Origin: Bacteroidota bacterium
GTDB taxonomy: Bacteria; Bacteroidota; Ignavibacteria; UBA10030; BY39
DNA: 64,000 bases
Direction of reading: 5' to 3'
Assembly: GCA_030682385.1 (NCBI GenBank)
Contig: JAUXOG010000013.1
Coordinates: 1 to 64,000, forward strand
Under the pieces are notes generated by a model. The model was not told the origin of the DNA. It ran no database searches and saw only the letters and a program-made list of their open reading frames with translations. Shown here in pieces: positions 16,543-38,845 of this stretch; the stretch's first letter is position 1; each line of letters begins with the position of its first letter. The position numbers and the translations under genes are program-made.

Positions 16543-17553
16543 TTATCTATTTTCGTACATGTTTTTGTAATATTCTTGATACTTGCCGCTGATAATTCGT
16601 TGCCACCAGTCTTTGTTGTTTAAATACCATTCGATTGTTTCGGCGATACCTTCTTCAAATGTATAACGCGGCTGCCAGCCAAGTTCATTTTTGATTTTAG
16701 TCGCATCTATTGCGTATCGTAAATCGTGTCCCGGACGGTCTTTAACATAAGTAATCAAACTCTCCGGTTTGTTCAATTTAGCTAAGAGTAGTTTAACGAT
16801 ATCGATGTTTTTCCATTCGTTGTTACCACCGATGTTGTAAACCTCACTTATCTTTCCGTTATGCAAAACAACATCGATAGCTTCGCAGTGGTCCAGCACG
16901 TGCAACCAGTCGCGGACGTTTGTACCTTGCCCGTAAACGGGGAGAGGTTTATCGTTGAGTGCGTTTGCGATCATAAGCGGGATTAATTTTTCAGGGAATT
17001 GGTAATGTCCGTAATTGTTTGAACAGCGGGTAATTAGAACCGGGGTTCCAAAGGTATGCTGATAAGCCAAAGCAAGTAAATCAGCTCCGGTTTTGCTTGC
17101 CGCATAAGGACTGTTAGGATGCAGCGGAGTTTCTTCTGTAAATTTTCCTGAGCTTCCTAACGATCCGTAAACTTCATCAGTCGAGACTTGAAGAAATATT
17201 TTTATTCCTTTTTCTTTAGCAGCATCGAGAAGAACTTGTGTACCGAGAACATTTGTTTGGACAAAAATCGCTGCACCTAATATGCTGCGGTCAACGTGTG
17301 ACTCAGCCGCAAAGTTTACCACCGTATCGATTTGATATTTTTCTATCACATTTGTAACGGTTTCCTTGTCGCAGATATCGCCTCTTTCAAAATGGTAGTT
17401 CGGATTTGATTCGATGCTTTTCAGGTTTTCTAAATTGCCGGCATAAGTCAGTTTATCAAAATTTACTATCTTGTAATCGGGATGCTTTTCAAGAATATAG
17501 TGGATAAAGTTGCTGCCAATAAATCCGGCGCCGCCTGTTACTAAAATCGTCAT
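16543..17553 (-). CDS. rfbB: dTDP-glucose 4,6-dehydratase
   Basis: MTILVTGGAGFIGSNFIHYILEKHPDYKIVNFDKLTYAGNLENL; YAASKTGADLL. Start moved from 17574 to 17553 because the first 7 codons lie in a heptamer array. Confidence 0.9.
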   Translation of the reverse strand: MTILVTGGAGFIGSNFIHYILEKHPDYKIVNFDKLTYAGNLENLKSIESNPNYHFERGDICDKETVTNVIEKYQIDTVVNFAAESHVDRSILGAAIFVQTNVLGTQVLLDAAKEKGIKIFLQVSTDEVYGSLGSSGKFTEETPLHPNSPYAASKTGADLLALAYQHTFGTPVLITRCSNNYGHYQFPEKLIPLMIANALNDKPLPVYGQGTNVRDWLHVLDHCEAIDVVLHNGKISEVYNIGGNNEWKNIDIVKLLLAKLNKPESLITYVKDRPGHDLRYAIDATKIKNELGWQPRYTFEEGIAETIEWYLNNKDWWQRIISGKYQEYYKNMYENR

Positions 17554-17585
17554 TTGCTCTCTGTTATTCGTCATTTGTAATTAGT
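17544..17585. repeat. Period-7 array, about 6 units, consensus NATTNGT (+ strand)
   Basis: AAATCGT CATTTGC TCTCTGT TATTCGT CATTTGT AATTAGT, contiguous; spans the epimerase stop and rfbB start. Confidence 0.55.
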
Positions 17586-18054
17586 CTATTTTGAATATTG
17601 TGTTAGGGTCGTGTTCGTGGCGGATTTCGTCAACTTTTTCTTTTTTCCCCATACCCATAAAAAGTCGGTTTGGGTAGTTGGTGACCATACCTAATTTATC
17701 GCCGATATTTTTATACGCATGAACGATTCCCGGCGGAACCAGGATCGATTTTGGTTCATCCTCGCCGGCAGTGATTATCATTTTGTGAAGGTAAGTGGGG
17801 GAATCCTTCCTATTATCCCAAAGATAAATTTTAAACGTTGAGGGACCGATGAAGCCGAATAAATCTGCCTGATCGACGTGTTCGTGAGGGCCCCTTGCAA
17901 CTTGAGGATTTGTCATTGAAATGTAAGACATTACGGGATGAAATTCTGTAAGAAGTTCGTCGTTGCGAAAAGTTTCAATAAGCCAACCGCGTTGGTCTGA
18001 ATATTTACCGAGTATTTTAACTGCTACACCATTGATTGGGGCGTTTTTGAACAT
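17581..18054 (-). CDS. RmlC-like cupin (dTDP-4-dehydrorhamnose 3,5-epimerase family, divergent)
   Basis: VKILGKYSDQRGWLIETFRNDEL...RGPHEHVDQADLFGFIGPSTFKIYLWDNR...VPPGIVHAYKN. Confidence 0.75.
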   Translation of the reverse strand: MFKNAPINGVAVKILGKYSDQRGWLIETFRNDELLTEFHPVMSYISMTNPQVARGPHEHVDQADLFGFIGPSTFKIYLWDNRKDSPTYLHKMIITAGEDEPKSILVPPGIVHAYKNIGDKLGMVTNYPNRLFMGMGKKEKVDEIRHEHDPNTIFKID

Positions 18055-18204
18055 CCTGATTCCTAAATAGTTTGAAAATCTGCTTGAAAATATGAAAAAA
18101 AGCTGTAAAAAACAATGGTAGCAATATGTTCGGTAAGTATTCCTTTATAATTTATTGAATAATCTGTGAAATGAATCTACAAAATGCCCAAATTAAAATC
18201 AAAT

Positions 18205-18241
18205 GGGCTGATTAATATATTTATCTTTTATCAATCAGCCC
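18205..18241 (-). terminator. Putative hairpin terminator 3' of the double-receiver gene
   Basis: gggctgatt(18205-18213)/aatcagccc(18233-18241), perfect 9 bp; minus-strand read is followed by ATTTGATTTT. Confidence 0.6.
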
Positions 18242-18256
18242 TGATACAATTTTGGA

Positions 18257-19411
18257 TTATGCAACTAATACTTCTTGAGTTTTTTTGGTTAATTCGGCAG
18301 GTGTGAAAGGTTTTGGAATGATATCGGATGCGCCTAAGTTTATCGCTTCGATTGCATTCTCAATAGAAGCATATCCGGAAATTATTATTACAGGAATTTC
18401 GGGCCAATTGCTTTTAATTGACTGCAAAACTTCGATACCGCTCCGCTTTGGCATCTTTAAATCTAATAATATTAAATCGTATCTATTGAGTTTCATCTTT
18501 TGCAATGCTGCATCTACGTCGAATGCTTCTTCAACGGCGCAGCTTTGTTTAGATAAAATTCTTCGGACACTGTGGCAAACTATAGGTTCATCGTCAATTA
18601 CTAAAACTGAATGCTTCGCCGTTGCATCCCTGCCCCACAATGCTGCTAATGGTATATCGGATCTGCTGAGACAATTAATGTAATCTGAACTTGTTGCTTG
18701 CTCAACTTCCGAAATGCTGAATGGCAGGTCGGCATCGATTATCTCGGATGTATTTCTTTTTACTTTAACGACTTTTGCACGTTCTTTCTTTTCGAGCGGA
18801 CATTCACCAACACACTCACGGCCTTCAGTGATAACTCGACGGCATTCTCGTTTTCCTAAATTACAATATGCCTTGATTGCTGCTTTCTTTGCAAGCGGTA
18901 TATCGGAATGAGTGAGGGCTTCAACATATTCTATCGAGGTTGCTTTGGCTACTTCGTTTTTATTGAATGGCATATCCACATCAATTATTTCGGAAGTATG
19001 GTCGTCAACTTTGGGTTCAACTTTTCGTTGTTCAATCTTTATTTGTCGTTGGGTTAAAGCTTTTTTTGTGGCTTCAGCCAATTCATCGGGAGTGAACGGC
19101 TTGGGTAAGTAGCTCGAAGCGCCAAGCTTTGTTGCCTTAACTGCTGTTTCGATGGATGCGTAGCCGGTAATCATTATTACTTCGAGTTCAGGATAATGAT
19201 CGCGGATAATCTGCATCAATTCCATTCCGTTAGTTTTAGGCATCATCAAGTCAGTAATCACTAAATCAAATGAGGTTTGATTAATTTTTTTGACTGCATC
19301 TTCAACATTCAATGCATTATCGATTTCATATCCTTTGCGGGAGAGAATTTTTTTGATGCTCTGACAAACAATTTCTTCGTCGTCAACCACTAATATTTTT
19401 TCAGTTATCAT
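18257..19411 (-). CDS. Response regulator with two receiver domains, a duplicated ~36-aa linker motif and a four-Cys cluster
   Basis: Two REC domains ([12 protein letters not shown]...DLMMP...ITGYAS...PKPFTP; SVLVIDDEPIVC...DLKMP...ISGYAS...PKPFTP). Linker copies TSEIIDVDMPFNKNEVAKATSIEYVEALTHSDIPLA and TSEIIDADLPFSISEVEQATSSDYINCLSRSDIPLA. Confidence 0.88.
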   Translation of the reverse strand: MITEKILVVDDEEIVCQSIKKILSRKGYEIDNALNVEDAVKKINQTSFDLVITDLMMPKTNGMELMQIIRDHYPELEVIMITGYASIETAVKATKLGASSYLPKPFTPDELAEATKKALTQRQIKIEQRKVEPKVDDHTSEIIDVDMPFNKNEVAKATSIEYVEALTHSDIPLAKKAAIKAYCNLGKRECRRVITEGRECVGECPLEKKERAKVVKVKRNTSEIIDADLPFSISEVEQATSSDYINCLSRSDIPLAALWGRDATAKHSVLVIDDEPIVCHSVRRILSKQSCAVEEAFDVDAALQKMKLNRYDLILLDLKMPKRSGIEVLQSIKSNWPEIPVIIISGYASIENAIEAINLGASDIIPKPFTPAELTKKTQEVLVA

Positions 19412-19465
19412 TTTATTTTTCCTTTTGGTTTTTGTTTAATATCATTTTTATAATACATCAATAAC

Positions 19466-19481
19466 TGCAACGGCTATGCCA
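19466..19481 (-). promoter_or_regulatory. Sigma-54 (-24/-12) promoter for the double-receiver gene
   Basis: Minus strand TGGCATAGCCGTTGCA matches TGGCAYRNNNNTTGCW at every position; 55 bp from the ATG at 19411. Confidence 0.75.
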
Positions 19482-19665
19482 TCGATATTGTAGCTGGAAA
19501 TGATTAGCTATAACCAATTATATTATAATGAGTTATGGGTGGAAAGGTTATGGTGATGTGAGTAAATAAAAGTTTTTAGAGTTACCCAAAAAAATTAGAA
19601 TATGCTGAAAAGAGGTGAGTTTGCGAAAATTATGTGGATAAAAAAAATATACACCTGCATATAAA

Positions 19666-21060
19666 TTACTTGTTAATACCGTATTTCCGCATCAAGGCTT
19701 GAAAGTTGGAACGCTGCATCTCAACATCGCGCGCAGCTTTCGTTACATTCCAGTTGTTGCGGATAAGAGCTTCTTCCACAAACATTTTTTCTATCTCTTG
19801 AATGGAGGCTTCGCGGATTTGCTTTTTTAGCTTTTTCAGTTCATCAGTACCTTTTGGAATGATGGAACTGACTTGTGTTTCGCTTTTGAACAGGGCGGCT
19901 GAAATATGAACAGGTAAAATTTCGTCTCCGTCAACTAATATTGTCAACCGCTCAATTGTGTGTTCAAGTTCGCGAACATTTCCGGGCCAATGATAATTTA
20001 GTAATACTTCAAATGCTTCAGGTCCGATTTTAGGAATTGGTTTTGCTAATTTACCGCAAGAAAATTTTAGAAATTGTTTTATCAGTTCAGGAATATCATC
20101 TTTCCTTTCACGAAGCGATGGTAGTTTAATCGGGAAAACATTCAGCCGGTAATAAAGGTCTTCGCGGAATTTTCCTTCGCTCACTAAGTTCTTCAAATTT
20201 TGGTTGGTGGCAAAGATCAATCGAACATCAACATTATTAATTTTTGTGCTGCCAACCGGAAGAATTTCCTTGGTTTGCAAAACGCGTAATAATCGTGACT
20301 GGACTTCAAGCGATAAGTTGCCGATTTCATCTAAGAAAATTGTTCCGTTATTAGCAGCTTCAAACAAACCTTGTTTATCGGAGGTCGCTCCAGTGAATGA
20401 ACCTTTCATGTGTCCGAACAATTCGCTCTCCAATAAAGTGCTCGATAGTGTCGATAAATCTATTGCAAAAAACATTTTGTCTTTTCGGTTGCTGCAATTA
20501 TGTATTGCTCGTGCTGTTAAATCTTTGCCGGTTCCACTTTCGCCGATTATTAAAACGGTGCAATCGGTAGGGGCAACTTTCCGAATTAAATTAAACACCT
20601 CAATCATTTTAGGACTTTCACCAATAAAGCCTTCGTATCCGGAAGTTTCTGAAAATGTGGTATCATCTATCATACGCTGCATCAGTTTGCGTTTTTCTAA
20701 TGCGCGGTTTAGAACTGCTAATAATTCGGCAGGCGTGAATGGTTTGGGAAGGAAATCGAAAGCACCCGAACGCATCGTCTCGACTGCTGCTGCAATAGTA
20801 GCATAACCCGTTATAATGATTACGACAGTTTCAGGATACCACTGTTTGATTGTGGCTAAAACCTCAAATCCGCTTATATCCAACATTTTTAAATCGGTGA
20901 AGACCACATCGAAAGATTCGGATTGTAAAAGTGCGAGCGCTTGTTTACCCGATGTGCTGTATTTTACTTTGTGTCCTGCACGCAAAAATATTTTTTCACA
21001 ACTTTTACAGATTACTAATTCATCGTCAACGACTAATATTTTAGCTGTCATTTGTTTCAA
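19666..21060 (-). CDS. NtrC-family sigma-54-dependent response regulator (REC-AAA+-Fis HTH)
   Basis: REC domain, GESGTGKDLTARAIH Walker A, ESELFGHMKGSFTGA loop, C-terminal NWNVTKAARDVEMQRSNFQALMRKYGI HTH. Confidence 0.95.
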   Translation of the reverse strand: MKQMTAKILVVDDELVICKSCEKIFLRAGHKVKYSTSGKQALALLQSESFDVVFTDLKMLDISGFEVLATIKQWYPETVVIIITGYATIAAAVETMRSGAFDFLPKPFTPAELLAVLNRALEKRKLMQRMIDDTTFSETSGYEGFIGESPKMIEVFNLIRKVAPTDCTVLIIGESGTGKDLTARAIHNCSNRKDKMFFAIDLSTLSSTLLESELFGHMKGSFTGATSDKQGLFEAANNGTIFLDEIGNLSLEVQSRLLRVLQTKEILPVGSTKINNVDVRLIFATNQNLKNLVSEGKFREDLYYRLNVFPIKLPSLRERKDDIPELIKQFLKFSCGKLAKPIPKIGPEAFEVLLNYHWPGNVRELEHTIERLTILVDGDEILPVHISAALFKSETQVSSIIPKGTDELKKLKKQIREASIQEIEKMFVEEALIRNNWNVTKAARDVEMQRSNFQALMRKYGINK

Positions 21061-23035: not shown

Positions 23036-23165
23036 TTAAAAATTACATACAATAATTCTGTTGAAAAATGCAGAAAAGTATATGAAAAAGCAAATATTTG
23101 CAAATATGTGCTTATTTCTTATATTCCTAAGCAAAATAAAGATTGAAATAAAAAAGGACATAAAT

Positions 23166-23211
23166 GACTAAAGCGACTTTAAACAGTCCTTTTAGTCCTT
23201 AAAGTCCCATA
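23166..23211. repeat. Nonamer-like tandem/inverted repeat
   Basis: AGTCCTTTT AGTCCTTAA AGTCCCATA in tandem (23185-23211); also gactttaa(23175-23182)/ttaaagtc(23199-23206) and gactaaa(23166-23172)/tttagtc(23191-23197). Confidence 0.5.
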
Positions 23212-23361
23212 AAATATAGTAATTATTGCAATGCGAAAAATGTAAAAAGTATAAGAATATAATTTATAACAATATGAAGTAACCATCGAAGTAAAATTAT
23301 GGAAGAACCAAAAATAAACGTACAACCAGCAATCGGTGAATTTAAATGTAAAGAAACAATA

Positions 23362-24117
23362 TCAAATAATCTCAATCGCCTCGCCAGGTATCCATCCAAC
23401 TTTTCCGTCGGCTAAACGGATTTTTTTCCATTTATCTACGTTATCCAAAATTTCTACTTTTACTCCTTCGTGCAAAATAAATAGGTCAGTACCGCTTTCA
23501 TCGGGTGAACTTTTGATTGCAACATTAGCCGCAAATACGATTGCTTCGCTTGTGCTGTGTTCGATTTTGTTTTGTTGTATCGCAAATATAAAAGTAACGA
23601 GTGCAAATAAAATTAAAAATGTCCCACTGAAAAAACTTAAACGTCTAACAAACGATTTGCTTGTTATTCTAAAGGCAGCGATGCAAAATAATCCAATCCA
23701 CAGAGCAATTATGCTGAATATAGACCAAGACGCTAAAGATGTTAATCCGCTTAATGCTTGCCACCATTCAAAGATGAACAAACGGGGGAGAGGTTCAATT
23801 TTATCGACAACCTTGAGATTAGCGATTTTGAGATTGTAGCTTATATCATCATCGTTTGGTGATAAACGCTTTGCACGTTCGTAGTATAAAATTGAAGCCG
23901 GCAAATTATCGAGTTTGAAGTTGGCGTTTGCGAGATTGTAGTAAAGGTCGGAGTGGGCGTAACCGTTCTTGATTATGTTTTCGTAAATTGCGATTGCTTT
24001 CGAATACTCACCATCACGATAAAACTGAGTTGCTTGATTATATTGATGGCTCACCTCGTCAGCCAACGAAATCGCCGGTAACAGGACAAGTGAAATTAAC
24101 AGAAGTAAATATTTCAT
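23362..24117 (-). CDS. batE: BatE-like protein (TPR plus SH3-type domain)
   Basis: QATQFYRDGEYSKAIAIYENIIKNGYAHSDLYYNLANANFKLDNLPASILYYERA; C-terminal SH3-like LHEGVKVEILDNVDKWKKIRLADGKVGWI. Confidence 0.8.
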   Translation of the reverse strand: MKYLLLLISLVLLPAISLADEVSHQYNQATQFYRDGEYSKAIAIYENIIKNGYAHSDLYYNLANANFKLDNLPASILYYERAKRLSPNDDDISYNLKIANLKVVDKIEPLPRLFIFEWWQALSGLTSLASWSIFSIIALWIGLFCIAAFRITSKSFVRRLSFFSGTFLILFALVTFIFAIQQNKIEHSTSEAIVFAANVAIKSSPDESGTDLFILHEGVKVEILDNVDKWKKIRLADGKVGWIPGEAIEII

Positions 24118-25928
24118 TTAATTTCCTCCTCGATTGTCGAAATTAAATCAACAGTATCGTTATAAATATTTTGCATATCGAGTCTATCCGATGAGGGAGC
24201 GAAACGTGCAAACTCGCAATGGTCGAGTGTAATCAGAATTTTGTTGATTGATTCGTCGCTAACATTTCGTGCCTTTAGTGAAGTGCTAACAGTATCCTTT
24301 GATAGTTCTGAAAGTTGAATTCCAAGTTTATCTCCAACATATCCCCAAAGAGCTTTCGAGAGTTCTTCGTAAAATTCATCTCTCTTTTTAGCTGATAGTA
24401 AATGCTTTGTAGTTGCAAGCCGTTTCTTTGCAATTTTAGTTGCACGTTTACTTTTGAAACGGATTACATCGCTTACATTTTGTTCATAACGTTTATACAA
24501 AAATATAAATCCGAAAAATAAAAATATCGGTGCAATGCTTAAAGTAATAAAAAGTCCTGACCCAAAAAATGTCTCTCCGTGTTTTTTAAATTTTACCGGT
24601 TCACTTTTGATGAAACGGATATCCTGACCTAACAATTTTATCTCCTCCTTGCTCAAACCTGCGGCCGGTGCCGGAACGATTTCAGTCCCTTTCGTAACAT
24701 TGATATTAAAGTCGGGTGAAGTAAATGAAACATACTCCTTTTTATCCGGATCGAAGTAGGCAAACGAGAAGGAAGATATTTTTTGATTCCCCTGCCGTCG
24801 TGGTATTATCAGATATTCAAAAGTCCGGCTGCCCGAGATGGTATTGGTTGACTGTGAAATGTTGTCTGAAATTTTTGGTTCATAAATTTCGAGGTCAGTC
24901 GGGAAGTTTATTTTCAGAGGTTGAATCAACTTCAGGTTACCCCTTCCCGAAATTTTTACTCTAAGAGTTACGGGTTCATTCGACTTTGTTTCAGTTTTAT
25001 CGAGCCAAAATTCGGTAGAAAATTTTCCAACGGCGCCGCTAAATCCCGGTGGTGGATTCGGCGGTAGGGGACGGACATTTATTTTGAGGCTGTTACTTTT
25101 TGATTTGTGTTCTACGTTTTGGACATTCCCGAAGAACTGATCGAAAACATCGCCGCCGCGTCTTCTAGTTTGAACCTGCACTATGAAATCGGCTTCCATC
25201 GGATCGATCTCTAGTGTTCCGCTTTGCTGTGAAAATAGAGCTGTTTTCTTTAGCGTTGCAACTTTGTATTGGACTCCGTTTAAAACTTCATTTTCAAATT
25301 GAGGATTTTTGGGTAAAGCAATTTCTTGCGCCCAAAAGCCGGTCAATGCTGGTACTTTACTAACACCATAATTTGTAATGTTAACACGTGTGTAAAGTTT
25401 GTAAGTTGCTGTAATTTGTTCGCCCTGATAAATGTTTGATTTATCGACACTTACACGAATGAAAAGGTTGTCGCTGATTTGTTTTGAGATACTTGCATCT
25501 TCCTGCGATTGCGACGGCTGCTGCTTCGGTTGCACTGACCCTTTGGTCACTTCAATAGTGATGCTGTTTGATTGAATCTTCTTGCTGCCCGATTCTATGG
25601 AAGCTGCACCGATTGTGAATTTACCTTCAGAGCGTGGCTGGAGGATGTAGGAATAAGAAATCGATTGCGACATCGCTCCATTAATGAATTGCATACTTGT
25701 TGATTGGTTGGGGCCCGACAAAACTAAAAAATCGGTAAAAGCCGGTGGTTGAAAATTTTTTCCCGATCCTTCCAAAGTGAAAGTAATTTCTAGTTGTTCG
25801 CCTGTTGTTATTTTGTTTCTGTTCATAGATGCAGAGAATTGAGACAAAGCAACTTCATTCATCAAGAATATTAATACAAAATGCAAAATAATTATTTGTA
25901 ATTTGCTATTTGTTATTTTGTATTTCAT
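24114..25928 (-). CDS. batD: BatD-like protein
   Basis: ASMNRNKITTGEQLEITFTLEGSGKNFQPPAF; GRGNLKLI; position between BatC and BatE. Confidence 0.82.
   Translation of the reverse strand: MKYKITNSKLQIIILHFVLIFLMNEVALSQFSASMNRNKITTGEQLEITFTLEGSGKNFQPPAFTDFLVLSGPNQSTSMQFINGAMSQSISYSYILQPRSEGKFTIGAASIESGSKKIQSNSITIEVTKGSVQPKQQPSQSQEDASISKQISDNLFIRVSVDKSNIYQGEQITATYKLYTRVNITNYGVSKVPALTGFWAQEIALPKNPQFENEVLNGVQYKVATLKKTALFSQQSGTLEIDPMEADFIVQVQTRRRGGDVFDQFFGNVQNVEHKSKSNSLKINVRPLPPNPPPGFSGAVGKFSTEFWLDKTETKSNEPVTLRVKISGRGNLKLIQPLKINFPTDLEIYEPKISDNISQSTNTISGSRTFEYLIIPRRQGNQKISSFSFAYFDPDKKEYVSFTSPDFNINVTKGTEIVPAPAAGLSKEEIKLLGQDIRFIKSEPVKFKKHGETFFGSGLFITLSIAPIFLFFGFIFLYKRYEQNVSDVIRFKSKRATKIAKKRLATTKHLLSAKKRDEFYEELSKALWGYVGDKLGIQLSELSKDTVSTSLKARNVSDESINKILITLDHCEFARFAPSSDRLDMQNIYNDTVDLISTIEEEIK
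25891..25925. repeat. Period-7 array, 5 units NNNATTT, in the first codons of batD
   Basis: ATTATTT GTAATTT GCTATTT GTTATTT TGTATTT (+ strand). Confidence 0.5.
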
Positions 25929-25931
25929 CTT

Positions 25932-26633
25932 TTACCAATCCTTCTCAATTGTGATTCTTGCCGGAGCTTTCTTTTTTAGCTTTTTCTGAACATCCTTCTC
26001 TTCGTTTTTCAATGCTTCGAGAAGTCGTTCGGCGTCTTCTTTTGAAATTTTCTGTTCCTGTTGTTTGGCTTGTTGCTGCTTTTGTTCTTCTTGCTTTTCT
26101 TTATTCTGTTGTTCCTGATTTTGTTGATCTTGTTTTTGGTCTTCCTTTTTGTCTTGCTTCTGCTGTTCCTGTTTTTCTTGCTTCTGGTCTTTCTTGTCTT
26201 GTTTTTGTTGCTGCTGCTGTTGAAGCATCATCTTTGCGTATTCTAAATTGTATTTAGTATCTACATCTTTTGGGTTTAACTTGAGAGCGTTTTTATAAGC
26301 TTCGATGCTTTCAGGAAATTTTTGTGTTTTCAACAATGAATTCCCAAGATTGTGGAATGCTTTCGCGCGGGTTTCTTTGTCCATTTCTTTTGTAGCTGCG
26401 ATTTTAAACTTCTCAGCCGCTTCTTCATATTTTTCTTGTTTATATAAAGCATCACCTAAATTAAATGTGCCGTATTGTGAATCTTTGTTTTTCTCTAATG
26501 ATTTACGATAATTCACTTCAGCATCAATATATTTATTTTCTTTATACTTGCGGTTACCTTCGTTAATGATAGACCTTTCCGATTGCGAGTAAGCTGAACT
26601 TGCGGCGATTAATATGAAGATAATTAATTTCAT
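25932..26633 (-). CDS. batC: BatC-like TPR protein with a long Gln/Lys/Glu-rich low-complexity region
   Basis: TPRs (AFHNLGNSLLKTQKFPESIEAYKNALKLNPKDVDTKYNLEYA), Q/K/E tract, C-terminal ITIEKDW. Start moved from 26672 to ATG 26633 (MKLIIFILIAASSAYSQ), overlapping the batB stop as ATGA. Confidence 0.82.
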   Translation of the reverse strand: MKLIIFILIAASSAYSQSERSIINEGNRKYKENKYIDAEVNYRKSLEKNKDSQYGTFNLGDALYKQEKYEEAAEKFKIAATKEMDKETRAKAFHNLGNSLLKTQKFPESIEAYKNALKLNPKDVDTKYNLEYAKMMLQQQQQQKQDKKDQKQEKQEQQKQDKKEDQKQDQQNQEQQNKEKQEEQKQQQAKQQEQKISKEDAERLLEALKNEEKDVQKKLKKKAPARITIEKDW

Positions 26634-27670: not shown

Positions 27671-27675
27671 TTTCT

Positions 27676-27759
27676 AATGGTCAATAGTGAAAGTCGATTA
27701 ATAATTAGCAATTAATAATTGTTTATAATGAAATCCAAAATCCAAAATCATAAATCATC
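27676..27759. repeat. Period-7 array, 12 contiguous units, filling the batA-batB intergenic gap
   Basis: AATGGTC AATAGTG AAAGTCG ATTAATA ATTAGCA ATTAATA ATTGTTT ATAATGA AATCCAA AATCCAA AATCATA AATCATC (84 bp = 12 x 7). Confidence 0.7.
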
Positions 27760-28752
27760 CTACGGGTTTATCCTGAATATCGTGTATCTGAATAATAATT
27801 CCAACAGGAGAAACAATCCTGCGAACAATGCTGCCATTGTGAATTGTTCCGATTTGCGTCTGAATTCCGTTACTTCGATTTTAGTTTTTTCTAATTTATC
27901 AATTTCCTGATAGATTGCTTTTAGTTTTTTGTTATCGGTTGCACGAAAATATTTACCGCCGGTCATTTCAGAAATCTTTTTCATCAACTCTTCATCAATT
28001 TGAACAGGAACATTTTGGTATTGAGTTCCGAACGGAGTTTGAACAGGGTAAGGTGCAAGCCCGATTGTTCCAACTCCGATTGTATAAACCCGAATACCGA
28101 AAGATTGAGCAATCTGTGATGCGGTAAGCGGGTCGATGAAACCGCGATTGTTGACGCCATCAGTTAACAAAATTATAACTTTGCTTTTAGCTTTGCTATC
28201 TTTTAATCTGCTCACCGATGTTGCAAGTCCCATTCCGATTGCGGTTCCGTCTTCAATCATTCCGCTTTTAACATCCTTCAATAAATTCTTAACAACAGCG
28301 CGGTCGGTTGTAAGCGGACATTGCGTAAAACTTTCGCCGGCAAAAATAACAAGTCCGATTCGGTCGTTCTCTCTGCCGTCGATAAAATCGAGAGCCACTT
28401 GTTTTGCCGCATCAATGCGGTTGGGTCGCAAGTCCTCAGCTAACATACTACCGGAAATGTCGGTTGCAAGAACAATATCGATACCTTCAGTAGTAACATT
28501 TTCGCTTCGGGTTGATGATTGCGGACGGGCGAGAGCAATTACGAGCAATGTGAAAGTAAAAATTCTGAATGCAAAAAGGAGATGCCGAAACCTCTGCCGC
28601 CACGAACGGGGTGTAAATTCAAAACTTTCCAATGTAGAAACTTGCATTTCAACATACTGCTGACGGTTGCGTTTCCAATACCAGTAAATGAAAACTGGTA
28701 TCAATAATAGCAGATAGAAAAAGTAAGGAGATGCAAAAGTTATGTTGCTCAT
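27760..28752 (-). CDS. batA: BatA-like VWA domain membrane protein
   Basis: MIDAS ATDISGSMLAEDLRPNRID; GLVIFAGESFTQCPLT; TM helices. Confidence 0.9.
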   Translation of the reverse strand: MSNITFASPYFFYLLLLIPVFIYWYWKRNRQQYVEMQVSTLESFEFTPRSWRQRFRHLLFAFRIFTFTLLVIALARPQSSTRSENVTTEGIDIVLATDISGSMLAEDLRPNRIDAAKQVALDFIDGRENDRIGLVIFAGESFTQCPLTTDRAVVKNLLKDVKSGMIEDGTAIGMGLATSVSRLKDSKAKSKVIILLTDGVNNRGFIDPLTASQIAQSFGIRVYTIGVGTIGLAPYPVQTPFGTQYQNVPVQIDEELMKKISEMTGGKYFRATDNKKLKAIYQEIDKLEKTKIEVTEFRRKSEQFTMAALFAGLFLLLELLFRYTIFRINP

Positions 28753-29810
28753 ACTTTTTCCTCCTCTAAAATTTTTAGGGGAATCGTTTTTTCGACGAAT
28801 TCAAAAGCTTGCTTCATACTTACATCGTTTTCATTCGGGAGCGGTTGCTGTTTTGCAAATTTTACGAAGTCGGCAAGTGTGAGCATCTCACTTAATAGAG
28901 ATTGCAACTGTCCGTTAAATTCTGAATGATGCAAGAAGTCAGCTAATATTTCATCGGTTGTGGATTCCATCGCTTTGATACTGAAACGGTCTTCGATGTA
29001 TGTTCGAACTACATCGGTCAGTTTGCTGTGGTAGAGTTTTACCTCGCCGCGCTGCCAGAGCTTTTCAGCTTCAAGAGACCGGAGCGCATCGAGTGCAATT
29101 TCGTAGGGTGGTCGTTTGGGCTCACTGAAAATTTTCCAGATGTCTTTTTGCTGTCGCTTTTTTATTAAGTAATAAATTAAAAAACCAATAAGTAGTGCAG
29201 CAATGGAACCTATTAAGTAGGGAAGTATTTCGGCAAATGTTATCGGCACACTCAACGGCGGTTTTATATCTTTAATATCCTGTGCTTGGTCAACCCCAAC
29301 ACCGTGAACAAAAATTGGGATCGGAGAGGTGGAAGCGAAATAAAGAGTTGTATCACTTTTTAAAATGTATCCGAAATCCAACGAGGGAATTACGAATGTT
29401 CCCGTGTCGTAAGCTGAAATTGTTAAAATTGTTTTCTCGATTATTTTATTTTCGGATTTTGTAATTGCTGGTTGCGATCGTTCAATCAACTCCAAACCTT
29501 CAAGTGAATCTAAAATTGCGGGATAAGAAAATTTTGTATCGGGTGGATATTCTAATTCGATATGAAGTTTTATCCAATCGCCGATTAATATATTATTCGA
29601 ATCAACACGTGCCGAGACGTGAACGCCTTGAGCAAAGAGCGGAGAGCTTTGAGCTATGAGCGGAGAGCTAAGAGCAAAGAGCAGGAAGCTAAGAGCTATG
29701 AGCAGTGAGCGTTGAGCTATGAGCGTGGAGCGTTGAGCAATGAGCTTCGAGCATAGAGCAAAGAAAATGATGATGTATTTTCTGAATTCGATATTTGTCG
29801 GTTTTACCAT
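28749..29810 (-). CDS. Bat-operon membrane protein (BatD/DUF4381-like) with a repeat-derived N-terminal signal region
   Basis: Located between batA and DUF58; N-terminus KLIAQRSTLIAQRSLLIALSFLLFALSSPLIAQSSPLFAQG; single TM (YLIGSIAALLIGFLIYYLIKKR). Confidence 0.7.
   Translation of the reverse strand: MVKPTNIEFRKYIIIFFALCSKLIAQRSTLIAQRSLLIALSFLLFALSSPLIAQSSPLFAQGVHVSARVDSNNILIGDWIKLHIELEYPPDTKFSYPAILDSLEGLELIERSQPAITKSENKIIEKTILTISAYDTGTFVIPSLDFGYILKSDTTLYFASTSPIPIFVHGVGVDQAQDIKDIKPPLSVPITFAEILPYLIGSIAALLIGFLIYYLIKKRQQKDIWKIFSEPKRPPYEIALDALRSLEAEKLWQRGEVKLYHSKLTDVVRTYIEDRFSIKAMESTTDEILADFLHHSEFNGQLQSLLSEMLTLADFVKFAKQQPLPNENDVSMKQAFEFVEKTIPLKILEEEKV
29628..29760. repeat. Period-7 array, 19 contiguous units NNGAGCN, inside coding sequence
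   Basis: TTGAGCA AAGAGCG GAGAGCT TTGAGCT ATGAGCG GAGAGCT AAGAGCA AAGAGCA GGAAGCT AAGAGCT ATGAGCA GTGAGCG TTGAGCT ATGAGCG TGGAGCG TTGAGCA ATGAGCT TCGAGCA TAGAGCA (133 bp). Confidence 0.95.
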
Positions 29811-30679: not shown

Positions 30680-30683
30680 ATCT

Positions 30684-30718
30684 TTAGTTATTAGTCAGAT
30701 GTCATCGGTCATTAGACA
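30684..30718. repeat. Period-7 array, 5 units (NNNGTCA type)
   Basis: TTAGTTA TTAGTCA GATGTCA TCGGTCA TTAGACA. Confidence 0.55.
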
Positions 30719-30735
30719 ATAATGCTTTTGTCAAT

Positions 30736-31056
30736 TTATTTTTCTTCTATCCTGTTTTTTATGCAATTAATATAAGCGTTGAGTTTAGGTGCAAGCAATT
30801 GCATATAGTTTTGAATTTCTTTCTCTTCGTCAATCGTAAAAAGTTTTCGTTTGGATGAACGCCGCAACCAGTGTTGTGTCTCATAAAGTGAGCCTCGAGA
30901 ATAGTAACAAAAATGTATATTTTTTTTATATGCGTATCTTCCGTAGCCTTCGGCAATGTTTGCACCAATTGAGTCGGCAGCTTTAATCATTTGTATTCCG
31001 ATAGTGGCACTATAGAACCATTTCCATTTTGTACATATATCCCAAATTACGGTACC
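30736..31056 (-). pseudogene. N-terminally truncated S23-like four-helix-bundle protein remnant
   Basis: Frame open from 31056 (GTVIWDICTKWKWFYSATIGIQMIKAADSIGANIAEGYGRYAYKKNIHFCYYSRGSLYETQHWLRR...) to the stop at 30736. The track's start (30990) is mid-domain, and no upstream ATG exists before moxR. Confidence 0.6.
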
Positions 31057-32033: not shown

Positions 32034-32117
32034 TAGAACTCCTGTAATATTTTTTTTCTTTAAATGATAAATGGACTCAGAAACAAATAAGTCCATCATG
32101 CTTATGAAAGCGTTACA

Positions 32118-32146
32118 ATTATATAAAAAAAAGATGAATTTTTCAA
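32118..32146 (-). promoter_or_regulatory. Sigma-70-like promoter for the moxR-bat operon
   Basis: Minus strand TTGAAA-N17-TATAAT. Confidence 0.6.
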
Positions 32147-32287
32147 CTTGGGCTATTCTACGAAGTCGGATAAATAGAGTTTCATTTTAGAAAAATTCCA
32201 GGTAGGACAATTATCACAAAATCCGAATTCCGAATTCTCGACGGGTCGAGTCGTCTACCGAAACCAGCAATCTTCAATTTCTTACCG

Positions 32288-32316
32288 TTGCAATCCTTAT
32301 AAAAATCATTTATATT
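32288..32316 (+). promoter_or_regulatory. Sigma-70-like promoter, UPF0173 hydrolase
   Basis: TTGCAA-N17-TATATT, 46 bp from the ATG at 32362. Confidence 0.6.
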
Positions 32317-32361
32317 TGAACGTGCTTTATCAAACAAATTTTTCATAACAACGGAGGTTAT

Positions 32362-33039: not shown

Positions 33040-33054
33040 GATTGAGATAACGAG

Positions 33055-33858
33055 TTGAGTAAAGTAGTAACAGTAGCAAATCAAAAGGGTGGAGTTGGTA
33101 AAACAACTACCACAATAAATTTAGCAGCATGTGTAGCAGCGGCTGAAGTTCCGGTTCTGATAATAGATAACGATCCGCAAGCTAATGCTACTTCGGGATT
33201 AGGATTTGATGCTCGAAACGGCGGGAAAAATATTTACGATGTATTAATCAACGATGTAAATCCGTTCGAGGTGATACAGCAAACAAGTATGCCGTTTCTT
33301 TCGCTCCTGCCATCGAGTATAAATTTAGTAGGTGCAGAAATCGAAATGGTAGAAATGGAGAATCGTGAAAAATTGCTTGCGAATGTTGTAGATAGTATCA
33401 AAAATAAGTATAGTTATATTTTTATCGATTGTCCGCCTTCGTTAGGATTGATAACATTGAATTCACTTGTTGCTGCCGATTCAGTTTTGATTCCGGTGCA
33501 GTGCGAGTATTATGCACTTGAAGGGCTGACTCAATTATTGAATACAATCAACATCGTAAAGAAAAACCTGAATCAAAAGTTGGAGATAGAAGGCGTTCTG
33601 ATGACTATGTTCGATGGGAGGCTGCGTCTTTCGAATCAAATTGTTGAAGAGGTTAAAAAATATTTTGGCAACAAAGTTTATCAAACAATTGTGAACAGAA
33701 ATGTTCGCTTGAGCGAAGCCCCCAGTTACGGTAAACCGATTTTGTTATACGATGCTTTATCGAGCGGCTCGAAAAATTATATGAATTTAGCACAAGAATT
33801 TTTGTTAAGAAACAATCATTTTCAAACAGAACAGGTAAATAAAGATGTCGAAAATTAA
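33055..33858 (+). CDS. parA: ParA/Soj chromosome-partitioning ATPase (TTG start)
   Basis: MSKVVTVANQKGGVGKTTTTINLAACVAA; IDCPPSLGLITLNSL. Confidence 0.95.
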   Translation: MSKVVTVANQKGGVGKTTTTINLAACVAAAEVPVLIIDNDPQANATSGLGFDARNGGKNIYDVLINDVNPFEVIQQTSMPFLSLLPSSINLVGAEIEMVEMENREKLLANVVDSIKNKYSYIFIDCPPSLGLITLNSLVAADSVLIPVQCEYYALEGLTQLLNTINIVKKNLNQKLEIEGVLMTMFDGRLRLSNQIVEEVKKYFGNKVYQTIVNRNVRLSEAPSYGKPILLYDALSSGSKNYMNLAQEFLLRNNHFQTEQVNKDVEN

Positions 33859-34771
33859 AGGCGGGCTCGGAAAAGGACTTGCTGCATTAATCCGTCCATC
33901 AGCAACAGATGAAGAAACTCCAGCGGTAGTTGAGAGAGAAGTAATAGTTCAAACGGTAACTCGTGAAACTGAAGGCATAATCTTAATAGATGTTGATAAA
34001 ATAAAACCGAATCCGTTTCAACCTCGTGCCGATTTTGATGTGCAAGCGCTTGATGAATTAAAGAAATCGATTATCGAAAAAGGAATTATCCAACCGATAA
34101 CTGTGCGCCGGAAAGACGGATACTTCGAGTTGATTGCCGGTGAACGAAGAGTGAGAGCTTCGACTGATGCAGGAATCAAACAAATTCCGGCTTACATAAT
34201 CGATGTTAAAACCGATGAAGATATGTTGGAGTTAGCACTTGTCGAAAATCTCCAGCGCGAACATTTGAATTCTATTGAAATTGCAATTTCTTATCAACGT
34301 TTAATCACAGATTGTAATCTCACTTACGAAGAAGTTGCAAAGAGAATCGGGAAGGACAGGACTACAGTAATCAATTTTGTCAGATTGCTGCGGTTACCCG
34401 ATGAAGTTCAGCGCTCGCTCAGGAAGGGACAAATTACGGCAGGGCACGCACGGATGTTAGTAAGTTTACCCGACGAAAAGTTCCAGATGAAATTGTTCCA
34501 TAAGATTATTAAGAACGATTTGAATGTCCGTCAGGTTGAAAAATTAGTCCGCGACATTAATAAAAAGCCCGAAACTGAATCTAAAATAGTTGAATTTGTT
34601 TCTGATTCGCCTTTCTCTGATATCGAGCAAAAGCTTCGGCAGATATTTGGAACGAAAGTAAAATTGCATCACCGAGCTGATGGAAAAGGTGAAATACTGA
34701 TTGAGTATTATTCGAACGACGATTTAGATCGTTTAATTGAAATAATGATGGTAATGAAAAACCATTCTTGA
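33845..34771 (+). CDS. parB: ParB/Spo0J partition protein
   Basis: GLGKGLAALI; IKPNPFQPRADFD; GERRVRAS; ALVENLQREHLNSIE. Confidence 0.95.
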   Translation: MSKIKGGLGKGLAALIRPSATDEETPAVVEREVIVQTVTRETEGIILIDVDKIKPNPFQPRADFDVQALDELKKSIIEKGIIQPITVRRKDGYFELIAGERRVRASTDAGIKQIPAYIIDVKTDEDMLELALVENLQREHLNSIEIAISYQRLITDCNLTYEEVAKRIGKDRTTVINFVRLLRLPDEVQRSLRKGQITAGHARMLVSLPDEKFQMKLFHKIIKNDLNVRQVEKLVRDINKKPETESKIVEFVSDSPFSDIEQKLRQIFGTKVKLHHRADGKGEILIEYYSNDDLDRLIEIMMVMKNHS

Positions 34772-34785
34772 AAGGAAATTAAAAA

Positions 34786-35175
34786 ATGAGAAAAAAAATT
34801 TATACCGAGAATGCACCCGCGCCTATTGGTCCTTACAGCCAGGCAATAATTGGTTCAGGTTGTTTTCTATTTACAGCAGGGCAGATACCGATTGATCCCG
34901 CATCGGGACAAATTGTTACCGGTGATATAAAAGCACAAACCAATCAGGTATTAAAAAACTTAGCCGCAATTTTAGATACCGGTGGTGCAACTCTACAATC
35001 GGTTCTGAAAACAACTGTCTATCTAACAGATATGAACGAGTTTGCCGGAATGAATGAAGTTTACGGAGAATTTTTTTCGGATTCTCCACCCGCCAGAACA
35101 ACAGTACAAGTATCACGACTACCACGAGATGTGAAAGTGGAAATAGAAGCAGTGGCATTAATAGTGAACGCCTAA
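34786..35175 (+). CDS. ridA: RidA-family enamine/imine deaminase
   Basis: [12 protein letters not shown]...[14 protein letters not shown]...[21 protein letters not shown]. Confidence 0.93.
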
Positions 35176-35193
35176 TTAAATACGACTCGAATT

Positions 35194-35760
35194 ATGTTTC
35201 AACCGAAAATACTTGGCTGTATTTTGTTTTTATTATTTTTTTTTATAGGTGCTGATGCTCAACCAAGTTTGTTCAATGACTTGAGCTTGAAAGATGATTC
35301 ATTGCAAGTAGTCGCCAAAGGATTAAATCAAGTTGAGGTATTTAAGACCGACACAAAATCAACCACGCTGGCGATGTTGTTATCAGCCGGTTTACCGGGT
35401 GCCGGACAGTTCTACAACGAATCATACTGGAAGATACCGGTGATTCTCGGTTTAGCAGGTTACTGGGGTTATGAATGGGTAGGATTAAATAGGGAGTATA
35501 AAAATTATAAAAACCTTTATTCAGAAAGTTTAATCAAACTCCCGCCTTCAGGAAATTACCAGTATCGAACTATACGCGATTTTTACAGAGGCGAGCGGGA
35601 TAAGTTTGCCTGGTATTTAGGTATTTTATATGTAGTAAATATATTGGATGCTTATGTTGATGCAAGCTTGTTTGAGTTTAGCGTTGATGATAATTTGGCG
35701 AATTCTACATATCTCAATTATTCTGCTGGCTTGAAATTAAGGATTTTTTTTTCAAACTAA
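35194..35760 (+). CDS. DUF5683-like membrane/periplasmic protein
   Basis: Signal peptide; AMLLSAGLPGAGQFYNESYWKIPVILGLAGYWGYEW; YLGILYVVNILDAYVDASLFEF. Confidence 0.75.
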   Translation: MFQPKILGCILFLLFFFIGADAQPSLFNDLSLKDDSLQVVAKGLNQVEVFKTDTKSTTLAMLLSAGLPGAGQFYNESYWKIPVILGLAGYWGYEWVGLNREYKNYKNLYSESLIKLPPSGNYQYRTIRDFYRGERDKFAWYLGILYVVNILDAYVDASLFEFSVDDNLANSTYLNYSAGLKLRIFFSN

Positions 35761-35768
35761 AGTAATAG

Positions 35769-35797
35769 TTGACAATAACGATATAAAGCATTATATT
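35769..35797 (+). promoter_or_regulatory. Sigma-70-like promoter
   Basis: TTGACA-N17-TATATT, 52 bp from the ATG at 35849. Confidence 0.7.
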
Positions 35798-35848
35798 ATC
35801 GCAGTTAGCTGTACATATATCTCAACAAAAAAAGAAAGGATCCAAAGA

Positions 35849-37195
35849 ATGAAAAAATTTACAATTACTTTTGTATCATTCGCAATTTTATTAGTAATTT
35901 TTAGCAACCCTTTAACTGCTAAAATTTCAATTAACCAATTGGATTTTGGTAATGTGTATGTCGAATCTACTTGGATAGACACCGTTTCCGTTTTCTCTGT
36001 ATCTCCAAATGATTTAAATTTTGGAAGTGTGTATTTAGAATCGATATCGACGGACAGCGTTATAGTTACAAATACCGGAGGTGGAAATTTAAATATTACT
36101 TCTGTTTATCCTACAAATAACCAGTTTAGCGTATTGCCTGCGAACGCTGTGGTAGCACCATTAACAAGCCAAAAGTTTGCTATAACTTTTGCACCTACTA
36201 CGGGAGGATTAAAATCTGGTTATATCGTATTTTTACACGATGGAGCCACAGGTCGTGATTCAGTTTCAGTTAGTGGCACAGGCATAATTACAATTGCCGG
36301 AGCCAGGGCATTACCAAATGCTTCCGAAGTAATCATAGAAGGTGTCATCACTCGTGGTTTAGGTGCATTCACACGCATACAAGATGCAACTGCCGGCATT
36401 GTCATCCGTCAAACAAGCGGTTCGTTTTTTGACGCAATAGTATCCGGGGATTTACGGGCTGGCGATAAAATTAGAGTTACAGGAAAAACTTCTGAGTACA
36501 TGTCTTTAAAACAAATCAATGCGGCTGATTTATTAAGCTGGGAACGACTTTCGCGGGATAATACATTGCCACCCCCACAACTTGTAACTCTTGCAGAAAT
36601 TGCTGCTAATGGCGAGCAATACGAAAGCGAACTCATCAAAGTAACTGATATGATTATCGATCCCGCGGGTGATTTGAATTTTCTTCCCGCAAAAACTTAT
36701 TCTAATATCACTGACCCTTCAAGCCCGACAAGCTTAGTTGTTTTACGGACTCCTAATGCCGCCGATTCAGACATTGATGGTACACCAATCCCGACAGCAA
36801 AATGTATATTTACTGGTGTGTTGGGACAGTTTCATTCTACCAATCCGGCGGCTGGATACCAACTAAGCCCTGTGCTTGCATCAGATGTAACAATACAGGT
36901 AAATGTCAGTGAACCTAACGTATTACCGGATAAATTTTCGTTGAATGGTAACTATCCTAATCCGTTTAACCCAGCTACTAAAATATCTTTCGATCTTCCT
37001 AAGTCAACGAATATTAGTCTTACGGTTTATAATTTATTAGGACAGAAAGTAAAAGACTTAATCACCAATAAAAATTATGGAGCTGGGAGACATGAAGTTT
37101 CATTCGATGCTTCCGGTTATTCAACCGGTGTATATCTTTACAAATTATCATCACCCGAATTTACGGCTGTTAAGAAGATGATCCTTAGTAAGTAA
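35849..37195 (+). CDS. Secreted protein with ASH/choice-of-anchor-type N-terminus and C-terminal T9SS type-A sorting domain
   Basis: Signal peptide; LDFGNVYVES/LNFGSVYLES; C-terminal LNGNYPNPFNPATKISFDLPKSTNISLTVYNLLGQKVKDL...GVYLYKL. Confidence 0.85.
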   Translation: MKKFTITFVSFAILLVIFSNPLTAKISINQLDFGNVYVESTWIDTVSVFSVSPNDLNFGSVYLESISTDSVIVTNTGGGNLNITSVYPTNNQFSVLPANAVVAPLTSQKFAITFAPTTGGLKSGYIVFLHDGATGRDSVSVSGTGIITIAGARALPNASEVIIEGVITRGLGAFTRIQDATAGIVIRQTSGSFFDAIVSGDLRAGDKIRVTGKTSEYMSLKQINAADLLSWERLSRDNTLPPPQLVTLAEIAANGEQYESELIKVTDMIIDPAGDLNFLPAKTYSNITDPSSPTSLVVLRTPNAADSDIDGTPIPTAKCIFTGVLGQFHSTNPAAGYQLSPVLASDVTIQVNVSEPNVLPDKFSLNGNYPNPFNPATKISFDLPKSTNISLTVYNLLGQKVKDLITNKNYGAGRHEVSFDASGYSTGVYLYKLSSPEFTAVKKMILSK

Positions 37196-37226
37196 AAAAT
37201 ATTGGTTAGTTAAAATCTTTGTTAAT

Positions 37227-37268
37227 AAAAGCCGGCTTATTGAAAGATGGACCGGCTTTTCTATTTTA
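37227..37268 (+). terminator. Rho-independent-like terminator
   Basis: AAAAGCCGG(37227-37235)/CCGGCTTTT(37252-37260), then CTATTTT. Confidence 0.75.
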
Positions 37269-37325
37269 GAAAGAATTAAGTATATTTCTCAAAATTATTA
37301 AACACTGATATGATCGAGGAATAAA

Positions 37326-38318
37326 ATGCTCAACTATATTTGGCTTTCATTAATTGTAATCGGAATATTAGTCGCAGTTACAATTGATTTCAGAGATATT
37401 TCGACCGACAAGTTCCGCAATGGAGAAGAAATACAAACAGAGTTAATTTTTGATTCTCCGACTCCACAACTTGAAAAGGGGAAACACTACAAGTGTAATA
37501 TTTTTATACCAGCGTCCGAGATGCAGAAAATTTATGGAATACAATTATCTCAAAATCTTGTTCAGGAAGCTGAGATAATAGTCTCGAATTCGGGTGAAGC
37601 AGTTATAAAAATTACGACTGATGAACAAAGTCCGACAATCTGGAGAGAGCACGCCGGCGCTCAACGCAAAAATGGCGACATACTGCAAGGAAAAGTACGT
37701 ATCACTCGGATGTCGGAAAACGGTTTCGTTGCAGTATTAATCCTTGACGCTGTAAAATTTGTAAAATTAAATTCAGTTACAAACGACGGAATTGTTCGTT
37801 ACGCAAAAACAGCGGTCGAGTTGGCAATTGGATTAATCGGTATCATGGCGCTCTGGTTAGGGGTGATGAAAATCGCCGAAGCATCGGGATTAATTACAAA
37901 ACTTGCAGGTTTTCTGAAACCTGTTACAACTCGCTTGTTCCCCGATGTTCCGCCCGATCATCCTGCAATGGGGGCAATGATTATGAATATCTCTGCAAAT
38001 ATTCTCGGACTTGCAAATGCGGCGACACCACTTGGTTTGAAGGCAATGGAGGAACTCAACAAGCTCAATAAAAAATTAGGAACTGCAACCGATGCGATGT
38101 GCACTTTTCTGGTTATCAATACGAGTAATGTTCAGTTAATACCTGCAACTGTCATCGCCATACGGGCTGCCGCCGGTTCCACAAATCCTACTGAGATTTT
38201 AGGTGCGGTAATAGTGGCGACTACAGTCAGTACGATAGTAGGAGTAACGGTTGTGAAGTTATTTGCTCGATTAAAAATATTCCGGAAACAGTTGGAAGCG
38301 GTGAGCGGTGAGCTATGA
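37326..38318 (+). CDS. Nucleoside-recognition (Gate) domain protein, SpmA-like
   Basis: GIMALWLGVMKIAEASGLITKLAGFLKPVTTRLFPDVPPDHPAMGAMIMNISANILGLANAATPLGLKAMEELNKLN. Its stop codon lies inside a heptamer array. Confidence 0.88.
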   Translation: MLNYIWLSLIVIGILVAVTIDFRDISTDKFRNGEEIQTELIFDSPTPQLEKGKHYKCNIFIPASEMQKIYGIQLSQNLVQEAEIIVSNSGEAVIKITTDEQSPTIWREHAGAQRKNGDILQGKVRITRMSENGFVAVLILDAVKFVKLNSVTNDGIVRYAKTAVELAIGLIGIMALWLGVMKIAEASGLITKLAGFLKPVTTRLFPDVPPDHPAMGAMIMNISANILGLANAATPLGLKAMEELNKLNKKLGTATDAMCTFLVINTSNVQLIPATVIAIRAAAGSTNPTEILGAVIVATTVSTIVGVTVVKLFARLKIFRKQLEAVSGEL

Positions 38319-38349
38319 GCATAGAGCTGAGAGCTATAAGCAATGAGCC
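38294..38349. repeat. Period-7 array, 8 units, GAGC orientation (left flank of S23 gene)
   Basis: GGAAGCG GTGAGCG GTGAGCT ATGAGCA TAGAGCT GAGAGCT ATAAGCA ATGAGCC (then a degenerate ACGAACG). Confidence 0.85.
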
Positions 38350-38415
38350 ACGAACGTTTGTTATAGATGAAAAATAAATGAATCAACCAAAATTAAAATA
38401 ACTATGGAGGAGCAG

Positions 38416-38763
38416 ATGTTTAGATTTGAAAATCTTGATATATGGAAAAGGTCTATAGAAGTTACAGATCAAATATTTGATATAGCTGACTCATTAGAAG
38501 ACAGGCGAAAATATAAATTTGCGGAACAATTACGTGGAGCAGTTTTATCAATAACGAATAATATTGCTGAAGGGTCGGGCAGTAACTCGAAAAGAGAATT
38601 TAGGCAATTTCTCAATTACTCACATCGGTCAGTTTCAGAAACTGCAAATATGATAATCCTTTGTTTAAGAAGAAAATATATAGATGAAAGAACGAATCGC
38701 CAACATCTAAATCAATTAGAAGAAATAAGTAAAATGATCACGGGTTTTTCTAAATCACTATAA
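38416..38763 (+). CDS. S23-like four-helix-bundle protein
   Basis: MFRFENLDIWKRSIEVTDQIFDIADSLEDRRKYKFAEQLRGAVLSITNNIAEGSGSNSKREFRQFLNYSHRSVSETANM. Start moved from 38404. Confidence 0.85.
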   Translation: MFRFENLDIWKRSIEVTDQIFDIADSLEDRRKYKFAEQLRGAVLSITNNIAEGSGSNSKREFRQFLNYSHRSVSETANMIILCLRRKYIDERTNRQHLNQLEEISKMITGFSKSL

Positions 38764-38845
38764 CTCGAAACTAATAGCTCAAAGCTCCAAGCTCAACACT
38801 CAATGCTCAATGCTCAATGCTCATAGCTCAAAACTCAAGGCTCAA
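38762..38845. repeat. Period-7 array, 10-12 units, GCTC orientation (right flank of S23 gene)
   Basis: AACTCGA AACTAAT AGCTCAA AGCTCCA AGCTCAA CACTCAA TGCTCAA TGCTCAA TGCTCAT AGCTCAA AACTCAA GGCTCAA. Confidence 0.9.

Follow-up and report, generated by a model that had tools for sequence, protein, structure and literature searches.

The window analysed here is a 64,000-nucleotide stretch of contig JAUXOG010000013.1 from a Bacteroidota bacterium (assembly GCA_030682385.1), which holds several degenerate tandem arrays of seven-nucleotide units. Two of these, at 38297-38353 (GAGC) and 38762-38845 (GCTC), form an inverted pair around a gene of the S23 family (PF05635) between spmA and spmB, an arrangement that we call an S23 element. 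The locus contains the following genes and arrays:

37326-38318, plus strand: spmA-like gene (Gate domain), upstream of the S23 element
38297-38353, plus strand: left arm of the intact S23 element, about 8 heptamers with an AGCnnnG (GAGC) core
38404-38763, plus strand: S23 / four-helix-bundle gene (PF05635, 23S rRNA intervening-sequence protein; Pfam E=4.5e-31)
38762-38845, plus strand: right arm of the S23 element, 12 heptamers with the consensus AGCTCAA, the reverse complement of the GAGC motif
38847-39389, plus strand: spmB-like gene (Gate domain), downstream of the S23 element; the listed open reading frame (ORF) starts at 38817, within the right arm

The S23 gene scores 107.7 bits against the PF05635 profile, compared with a curated cut-off of 33.8, and its start is more likely the ATG at 38416, which follows GGAGGAG. 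The stop codon of spmA lies within the left arm (the ORF ends at 38318), and the start codon of spmB (38847) stands directly 3' of the right arm. Most relatives have a spacing of only 4-46 bp between the two genes. An S23 element with GAGC arms occupies this junction in three genomes from three families, and the congener G001 (about 90% DNA identity) has a scar with an apparent S23 3' end. S23 is the sole ORF of the element and matches no transposase family in Pfam. The element is not within a 23S rRNA gene, being situated between spmA and spmB, and the window gave no Rfam rRNA match. In the predicted fold of the transcript the arms pair around the entire S23 ORF, leaving the spmB start outside (z=-3.0).

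We consider it probable that these arrays represent the terminal arms, either intact or surviving as remnants, of small mobile elements composed of an arm, an S23 gene and an inverted arm. The window genome contains ten PF05635 matches, nine of them above the cut-off, and a period-7 array lies near every one of these nine, often as one array per side in mutually inverted orientation; at one locus (L043) the arrays flanking S23 on either side have period 8, and one of period 7 lies beyond them. The same association was found in three independent sets of S23 genes, namely 30 loci from as many related genomes, 27 loci of the wider phylum and 80 named loci from about 25 phyla, the last spanning Cyanobacteria, the candidate phyla radiation (CPR) and two archaea. 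In all three sets, arrays of period 7 (sometimes 8, rarely 6) are concentrated within 150 bp of S23 and are far rarer elsewhere. Of 141 S23 genes (about 25 phyla, archaea among them), 88% have an array of period 7 or 8 no more than 150 bp away, on one side or both, and 60% are flanked by arrays on both sides. For 97 control ORFs taken from these loci at a distance of at least 500 bp, the corresponding values are 18% and 0%. Contigs were scanned with a profile from a narrower S23 alignment, the broader one being too diverse. Most of 37 viral-assigned contigs likewise show arrays near S23.

The two arms of one S23 locus share their best period, and their length is mostly 4-6 units. When upstream arms were compared with reverse-complemented downstream arms, 48 of 63 loci exceeded the 95th percentile of mismatched pairs (p=7e-27), and a locus's own arms also pair in RNA better than mismatched ones. 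On the S23 tree, loci of period 8 group together (7 changes versus 14.5 when shuffled; 0 of 500 shuffles), and arm motifs are much more alike among S23 pairs above 65% identity. Conservation is unevenly distributed over the columns of the repeat unit: for 86 S23 arms of at least 5 units the mean unevenness lies above all 200 redistributions, a signal seen with trimmed arms and absent when over-extended arms were used. Genes flanking the elements run mostly in the direction of S23 (71 of 95 upstream, 69 of 96 downstream), and in 26 of 64 cases no more than 10 nt separate the right arm from the next ATG. No known RNA family was matched by Rfam in the arms tested.

Several individual loci depart from the common form. 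In a relative (G018, L074) both S23 arms have period 6 with a telomere-like CCTAAA unit. Upstream of S23 at L105, a period-8 array of more than 12 units (CAACTGGT) is long and almost perfect, whereas arms are usually degenerate; downstream of S23 at L103 the right arm and its surroundings are present three times in tandem with a period of about 91 bp. Armed S23 elements are also present on IMG/VR contigs (L303-L342), which are viral by classification only. Two of these (L339, L340) have arms of the self-complementary heptamer CAACGTT/GAACGTT, with several more array copies within a few kb. Near-duplicate viral contigs did not yield element boundaries.

Comparison of filled and empty sites provides insight into the mobility of the elements. 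In cyanobacterial plasmids, an S23 unit of about 0.5 kb resides at stop/start junctions inside operons, and four such sites (A-D) could be compared between filled and empty forms near base resolution. The empty form of site B is GAGGTAATGGGATTTG, in which the stop and start overlap; in the filled form, GAGGTAATG precedes the element and ATGGGATTTG follows it, and these flanks indicate that both genes survive the insertion. Site A has TTCTA on both sides of the element and site B has ATG, and some junction bases are replaced at sites C and D. The empty sites A, B and D contain no array, so that landing of S23 in an array already present can be ruled out for these three. For site C, similar inverted arms lacking S23 are found on a plasmid that shares 94% identity with the filled one. 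A MITE-like form (miniature inverted-repeat transposable element) is found in Nostoc sp. ATCC 53789 (pNsp_c, L349), where inverted GGGAAC-type arms stand about 150 bp apart without S23, at a site where close relatives carry S23.

By computation, then, S23 genes in bacteria and archaea possess arms that are inverted and share a common period, and otherwise matching stop/start junctions differ in whether an element occupies them. Where such a junction is virgin, it is array-free, and elements decay to a truncated S23 gene plus an arm. The window offers an example of such decay at the junction of moxR and a DUF58 gene, where it has a remnant and G001 an intact S23 element with both arms. This remnant and the remaining arrays of the window are the following:

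30736-31047, minus strand: remains of a second S23 gene, truncated at the 5' end, in the moxR-DUF58 interval; PF05635 match at 30778-31047
30684-30721, minus strand: downstream arm (TTAGTCA family) that survives from the truncated S23 element
29630-29764, plus strand: solo array, GAGCnnn, 19 units, in the N-terminal (signal-peptide) coding region of the gene 28749-29810 (minus strand)
27731-27758, plus strand: solo array, AAATCnn, 4 units, batB-batA junction
27697-27720, plus strand: short array, ATTAnnA, 3.4 units, batB-batA junction, beside the AAATCnn array
25894-25932, plus strand: solo array, ATTTGnn, 5.6 units, BatD gene start, beside the stop of a TPR gene
17563-17585, plus strand: weak, marginal array, GTnATTn, 3.3 units, junction of genes 16543-17574 and 17581-18054

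The batB-batA junction (the 27676 site of the earlier note on this DNA) carries arrays in the window and two near relatives and is an ordinary junction in most genomes. Genome G014 has a full S23 element there, and G011 and G006 have inverted pairs without S23. At the 25891 site, G001 has a different core (AATCTnn) in the same place, from which it follows that arrays turn over much faster than their flanks. The counterparts of the 29630-29764 array in relatives have another motif or none. Heptamer arrays with differing motifs occur in the signal-peptide coding region of this one Bat-operon gene in many relatives (window 29620-29770; L261-L272), and being within a coding region they are translated there. 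Two further features of the window were noted in passing. The TPR gene of the Bat operon contains imperfect 12/24/54-nt repeats (26082-26221), which encode a Gln/Lys-rich stretch and are unrelated to the heptamer arrays, and about 6.8 kb is absent at the junction 23094-23385 relative to G001 (C12:5304-12148).

The earlier note had reported at least seven arrays of exact period 7 with variable sequence, placed at gene junctions and clustered around the regulator/Bat/Spm region. The arrays themselves are real: a lag-7 self-match scan recovers those at 25891, 27722-27766, 29628, 38294 and 38762 and, at a looser threshold only, that at 30684, and lag-6 and lag-8 scans return one and zero regions of the window, respectively. 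The array at 17544 is the weakest of the seven, with about 3.3 units picked up only by a lag-14 scan, and must be regarded as marginal. A fixed core with a variable remainder is well borne out by the 19 units at 29630-29764, where core columns are conserved at 0.95-1.0 and spacer columns at 0.37-0.47. The cores NNGAGCN and NGCTCNN, listed there as different, are reverse complements of each other and thus one motif in two orientations. The period is not 7 throughout, as versions of period 8 and rarely 6 exist elsewhere. Regional clustering fails, since arrays are real and spread over the genome: one stands just beyond the window (C101:66469), a sample of 148 kb from other stretches of the window genome has 13 lag-7 regions compared with 0.6 in shuffles, and a genome-wide search for GAGCNNN x5 gives 41 matches compared with none for the reversed control. 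As to placement, arrays do avoid gene interiors (8 of 45 inside, 36 expected), but tandem junctions are not enriched among junctions. The suggestion of a shared generating mechanism or selection on spacing was a good lead, although the arrays were not recognised as arms of S23 elements.

How such an element might work can be outlined as follows. It would consist of a left arm, typically of 4-6 degenerate heptamers, one S23 gene, and a right arm formed by the same repeat reverse-complemented, and would insert at stop/start junctions of operons. Pairing of the arms in the transcript may loop out the whole S23 gene, so that the operon could keep working. The S23 relatives 2gsc and 2rld each have five chains per solved entry, and Xcc0516 is described as five four-helix bundles arranged in a ring (Lin 2006, cited in PMC4990558). 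A pentameric S23 protein might contact the arms with one repeat unit per subunit; such contact would hold spacing and core fixed while the spacer bases drift, and a ring would also account for lineage-specific periods of 7 or 8. That the period tracks the S23 lineage and that the core is conserved over the spacer point indirectly to this role of the arms. Solo arrays would represent arms that lost S23 or moved without it.

This last step, by which solo arrays are relics of lost S23 elements or arms that moved alone, is the least secure part of our interpretation. The distribution of solo arrays agrees with it in part, as genomes without S23 have one array in 322 kb and S23-rich genomes 23 in 338 kb. 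Several observations weigh against the interpretation. The density of solo arrays is uneven among S23-rich genomes, with 13 of the 23 in one stretch; the window genome would have about 300 solo arrays (extrapolated from the 148-kb sample) compared with 10 S23 genes; and an inverted partner sought near its solo arrays was not found. Because solo arrays outnumber S23 and lack inverted partners, their descent from S23 elements is not established. Furthermore, the overall correlation between arm motif and S23 sequence is weak (r=0.15), 9 of the 63 S23 loci have direct instead of inverted arms by the same threshold and other loci are armless, and a consistent target-site duplication could not be made out at sites A-D, with bases replaced at some of them.

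The abundance of solo arrays relative to S23 genes and their position by start codons could alternatively indicate that they act on the expression of adjoining genes, as has been proposed for the Beggiatoaceae repeats (PMC4679880). We regard this as improbable, since the cores vary among arrays of one genome and even at the same site between congeners, the window junctions have no common gene function, and genomes without S23 are nearly array-free.

Rather less likely still are ordinary slipped-strand heptamer microsatellites, tolerated between genes, into which S23 merely inserts. Slippage would explain changes by whole units between relatives, as in the right arms of L345 and L346, which differ by exactly one CTGTTCC unit, or in the 27676 array, whose unit number differs by whole units in G001, and it is in line with the avoidance of gene interiors. 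Yet insertion into an array would leave direct flanks, and those of S23 are inverted; uniform decay would not yield fixed cores with free spacers; and neither the array-free empty sites nor the lack of both-side arrays among the control ORFs fits this explanation, which is already contradicted for the S23-flanking arrays.

As movers of the elements, HUH (Y1) transposases acting in trans may be the best current guess, though a weak one: across 60 related genomes their copy number tracks that of S23 (rho 0.73), and the correlation is robust to within-family permutation, compared with a weak correlation for DDE transposases (rho 0.25). The Y1 genes were rejected as carriers of the arrays, as none of the ten in the window genome has a period-7 array nearby, versus 9/9 of the S23 genes above cut-off. 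Window-genome Y1 genes (L290-L297) are flanked by GC-rich hairpins resembling repetitive extragenic palindromic (REP) sequences, e.g., ACTCCGCCCTGAAGGGCGGAGT, separate from the heptamer arrays. As the Y1 genes have hairpins of their own, their correlation with S23 may only mirror the general load of mobile elements. Alternatively, a host or phage polymerase, either telomerase-like or resembling the reverse transcriptase of diversity-generating retroelements (DGRs), might make the heptamers with S23 as cofactor. Avd, an accessory protein of DGRs, is related to PF05635 by structure and remote homology (PMC10053308), and the period-6 CCTAAA arms look telomere-like. Nevertheless, 12 of the 60 relatives have reverse transcriptases, whose occurrence is uncorrelated with the copy number of S23 (rho -0.01; not significant by within-family permutation), so that we reject them as array generators and find the polymerase scenario very unlikely. 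Selection for G-quadruplex formation, finally, which has been measured for GGGNATC repeats (PMC4692102) and would suit some G-rich arms (GGGGAGT, GGGTGTA), has next to no probability and is refuted as a general explanation, because most arms lack G-tracts (GAGC, TTAGC, AAATC, GAAT), no window array has runs of three or more G in successive units, and the orientation rule from the literature, by which the G-rich strand follows stops and the C-rich strand precedes starts, is equally predicted by left and right arms.

Tandem heptamers have been reported as the most abundant intergenic tandem DNA repeats in many prokaryotes, and for the function of their period there was 'no clear clue' (Mori et al., gky890). 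Interpreting them as arms of S23 elements offers a first concrete origin for such repeats between genes in many bacteria, and makes the question approachable through a protein that can be purified, an element whose mobilisation can be attempted and empty sites that can be compared. In turn, the S23 / four-helix-bundle family, with the Xcc0516 structure available since 2006 and no known function, gains a genomic context. Taking all parts jointly, we put forward as a tentative proposal, somewhat less likely to hold in full than to fail in some part, that S23 elements are an unnamed, near-universal class without transposase whose pentamer reads a 7- or 8-nt ladder, and that a large share of prokaryotic intergenic heptamers, including the short tandemly repeated repetitive (STRR) sequences of cyanobacteria, are their ends or relics.

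Compared with known mobile elements, the S23 element of the window differs from classical transposons with terminal inverted repeats in that it encodes no transposase by Pfam. S23 elements resemble REP/REPIN sequences mobilised by RAYT (Y1 HUH) proteins, and MITEs, in having short inverted units and non-autonomous copies that would spread in trans, but the Y1 genes of the window genome lack heptamer arms and are accompanied by REP-like hairpins instead. TRAP-type RNA-binding rings provide a likeness at the protein level, as ring proteins that recognise evenly spaced short motifs with free spacers; their fold is unrelated and the S23 counterpart is hypothetical.

Heptamer repeats are known from cyanobacteria, Beggiatoaceae and Xanthomonas as well as generally (PMC4679880, PMC4692102, gky890). 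The cyanobacterial STRRs, to which the earlier note had aptly pointed, are likewise tandem 7-nt intergenic units scattered over the genome, and arrays of this kind on Nostoc and Calothrix plasmids are the arms of S23 genes; STRRs have, however, been described as free repeats, and a link to S23 was not found in the literature searched. The TAACTGA repeats of Beggiatoaceae and the GGGNATC repeats of Xanthomonas and Nostoc, compared by description only, are also intergenic heptamers at starts and stops, but are near-uniform single motifs read as regulatory or quadruplex-forming. For the Xanthomonas GGGNATC repeats, 70-75 inverted pairs have been reported and left unexplained (PMC4692102).

The closest known system is the intervening sequence (IVS) of 23S rRNA in Leptospira and Coxiella, an insertion of about 0.43 kb with an S23 ORF and inverted-repeat ends. 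S23-bearing IVSs are known selfish elements. The window element parallels them in that terminal inverted repeats flank its S23 ORF and pair in the predicted RNA, but it lies between protein genes in an operon and not in rRNA (no Rfam match at the loci tested), and its arms are degenerate heptamer ladders. In the Coxiella IVS, two to three tandem heptamers (GACAGAT) precede the S23 ORF in strain-dependent number (PMC4990558); beyond this, a general link of S23 with heptamers was not found in a literature search outside of which preprints and most subscription papers lay, and owing to this limited search the absence of precedent is not proven. The IVS is hence a partial precedent for S23 within an inverted-repeat insertion. 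New are the occurrence of such an insertion within operons, ladder-like arms of degenerate 7- or 8-nt units, the breadth over bacteria and archaea, and a candidate origin for free heptamer arrays, by which the rRNA intervening sequences are extended to a general class of operon-inserted element.

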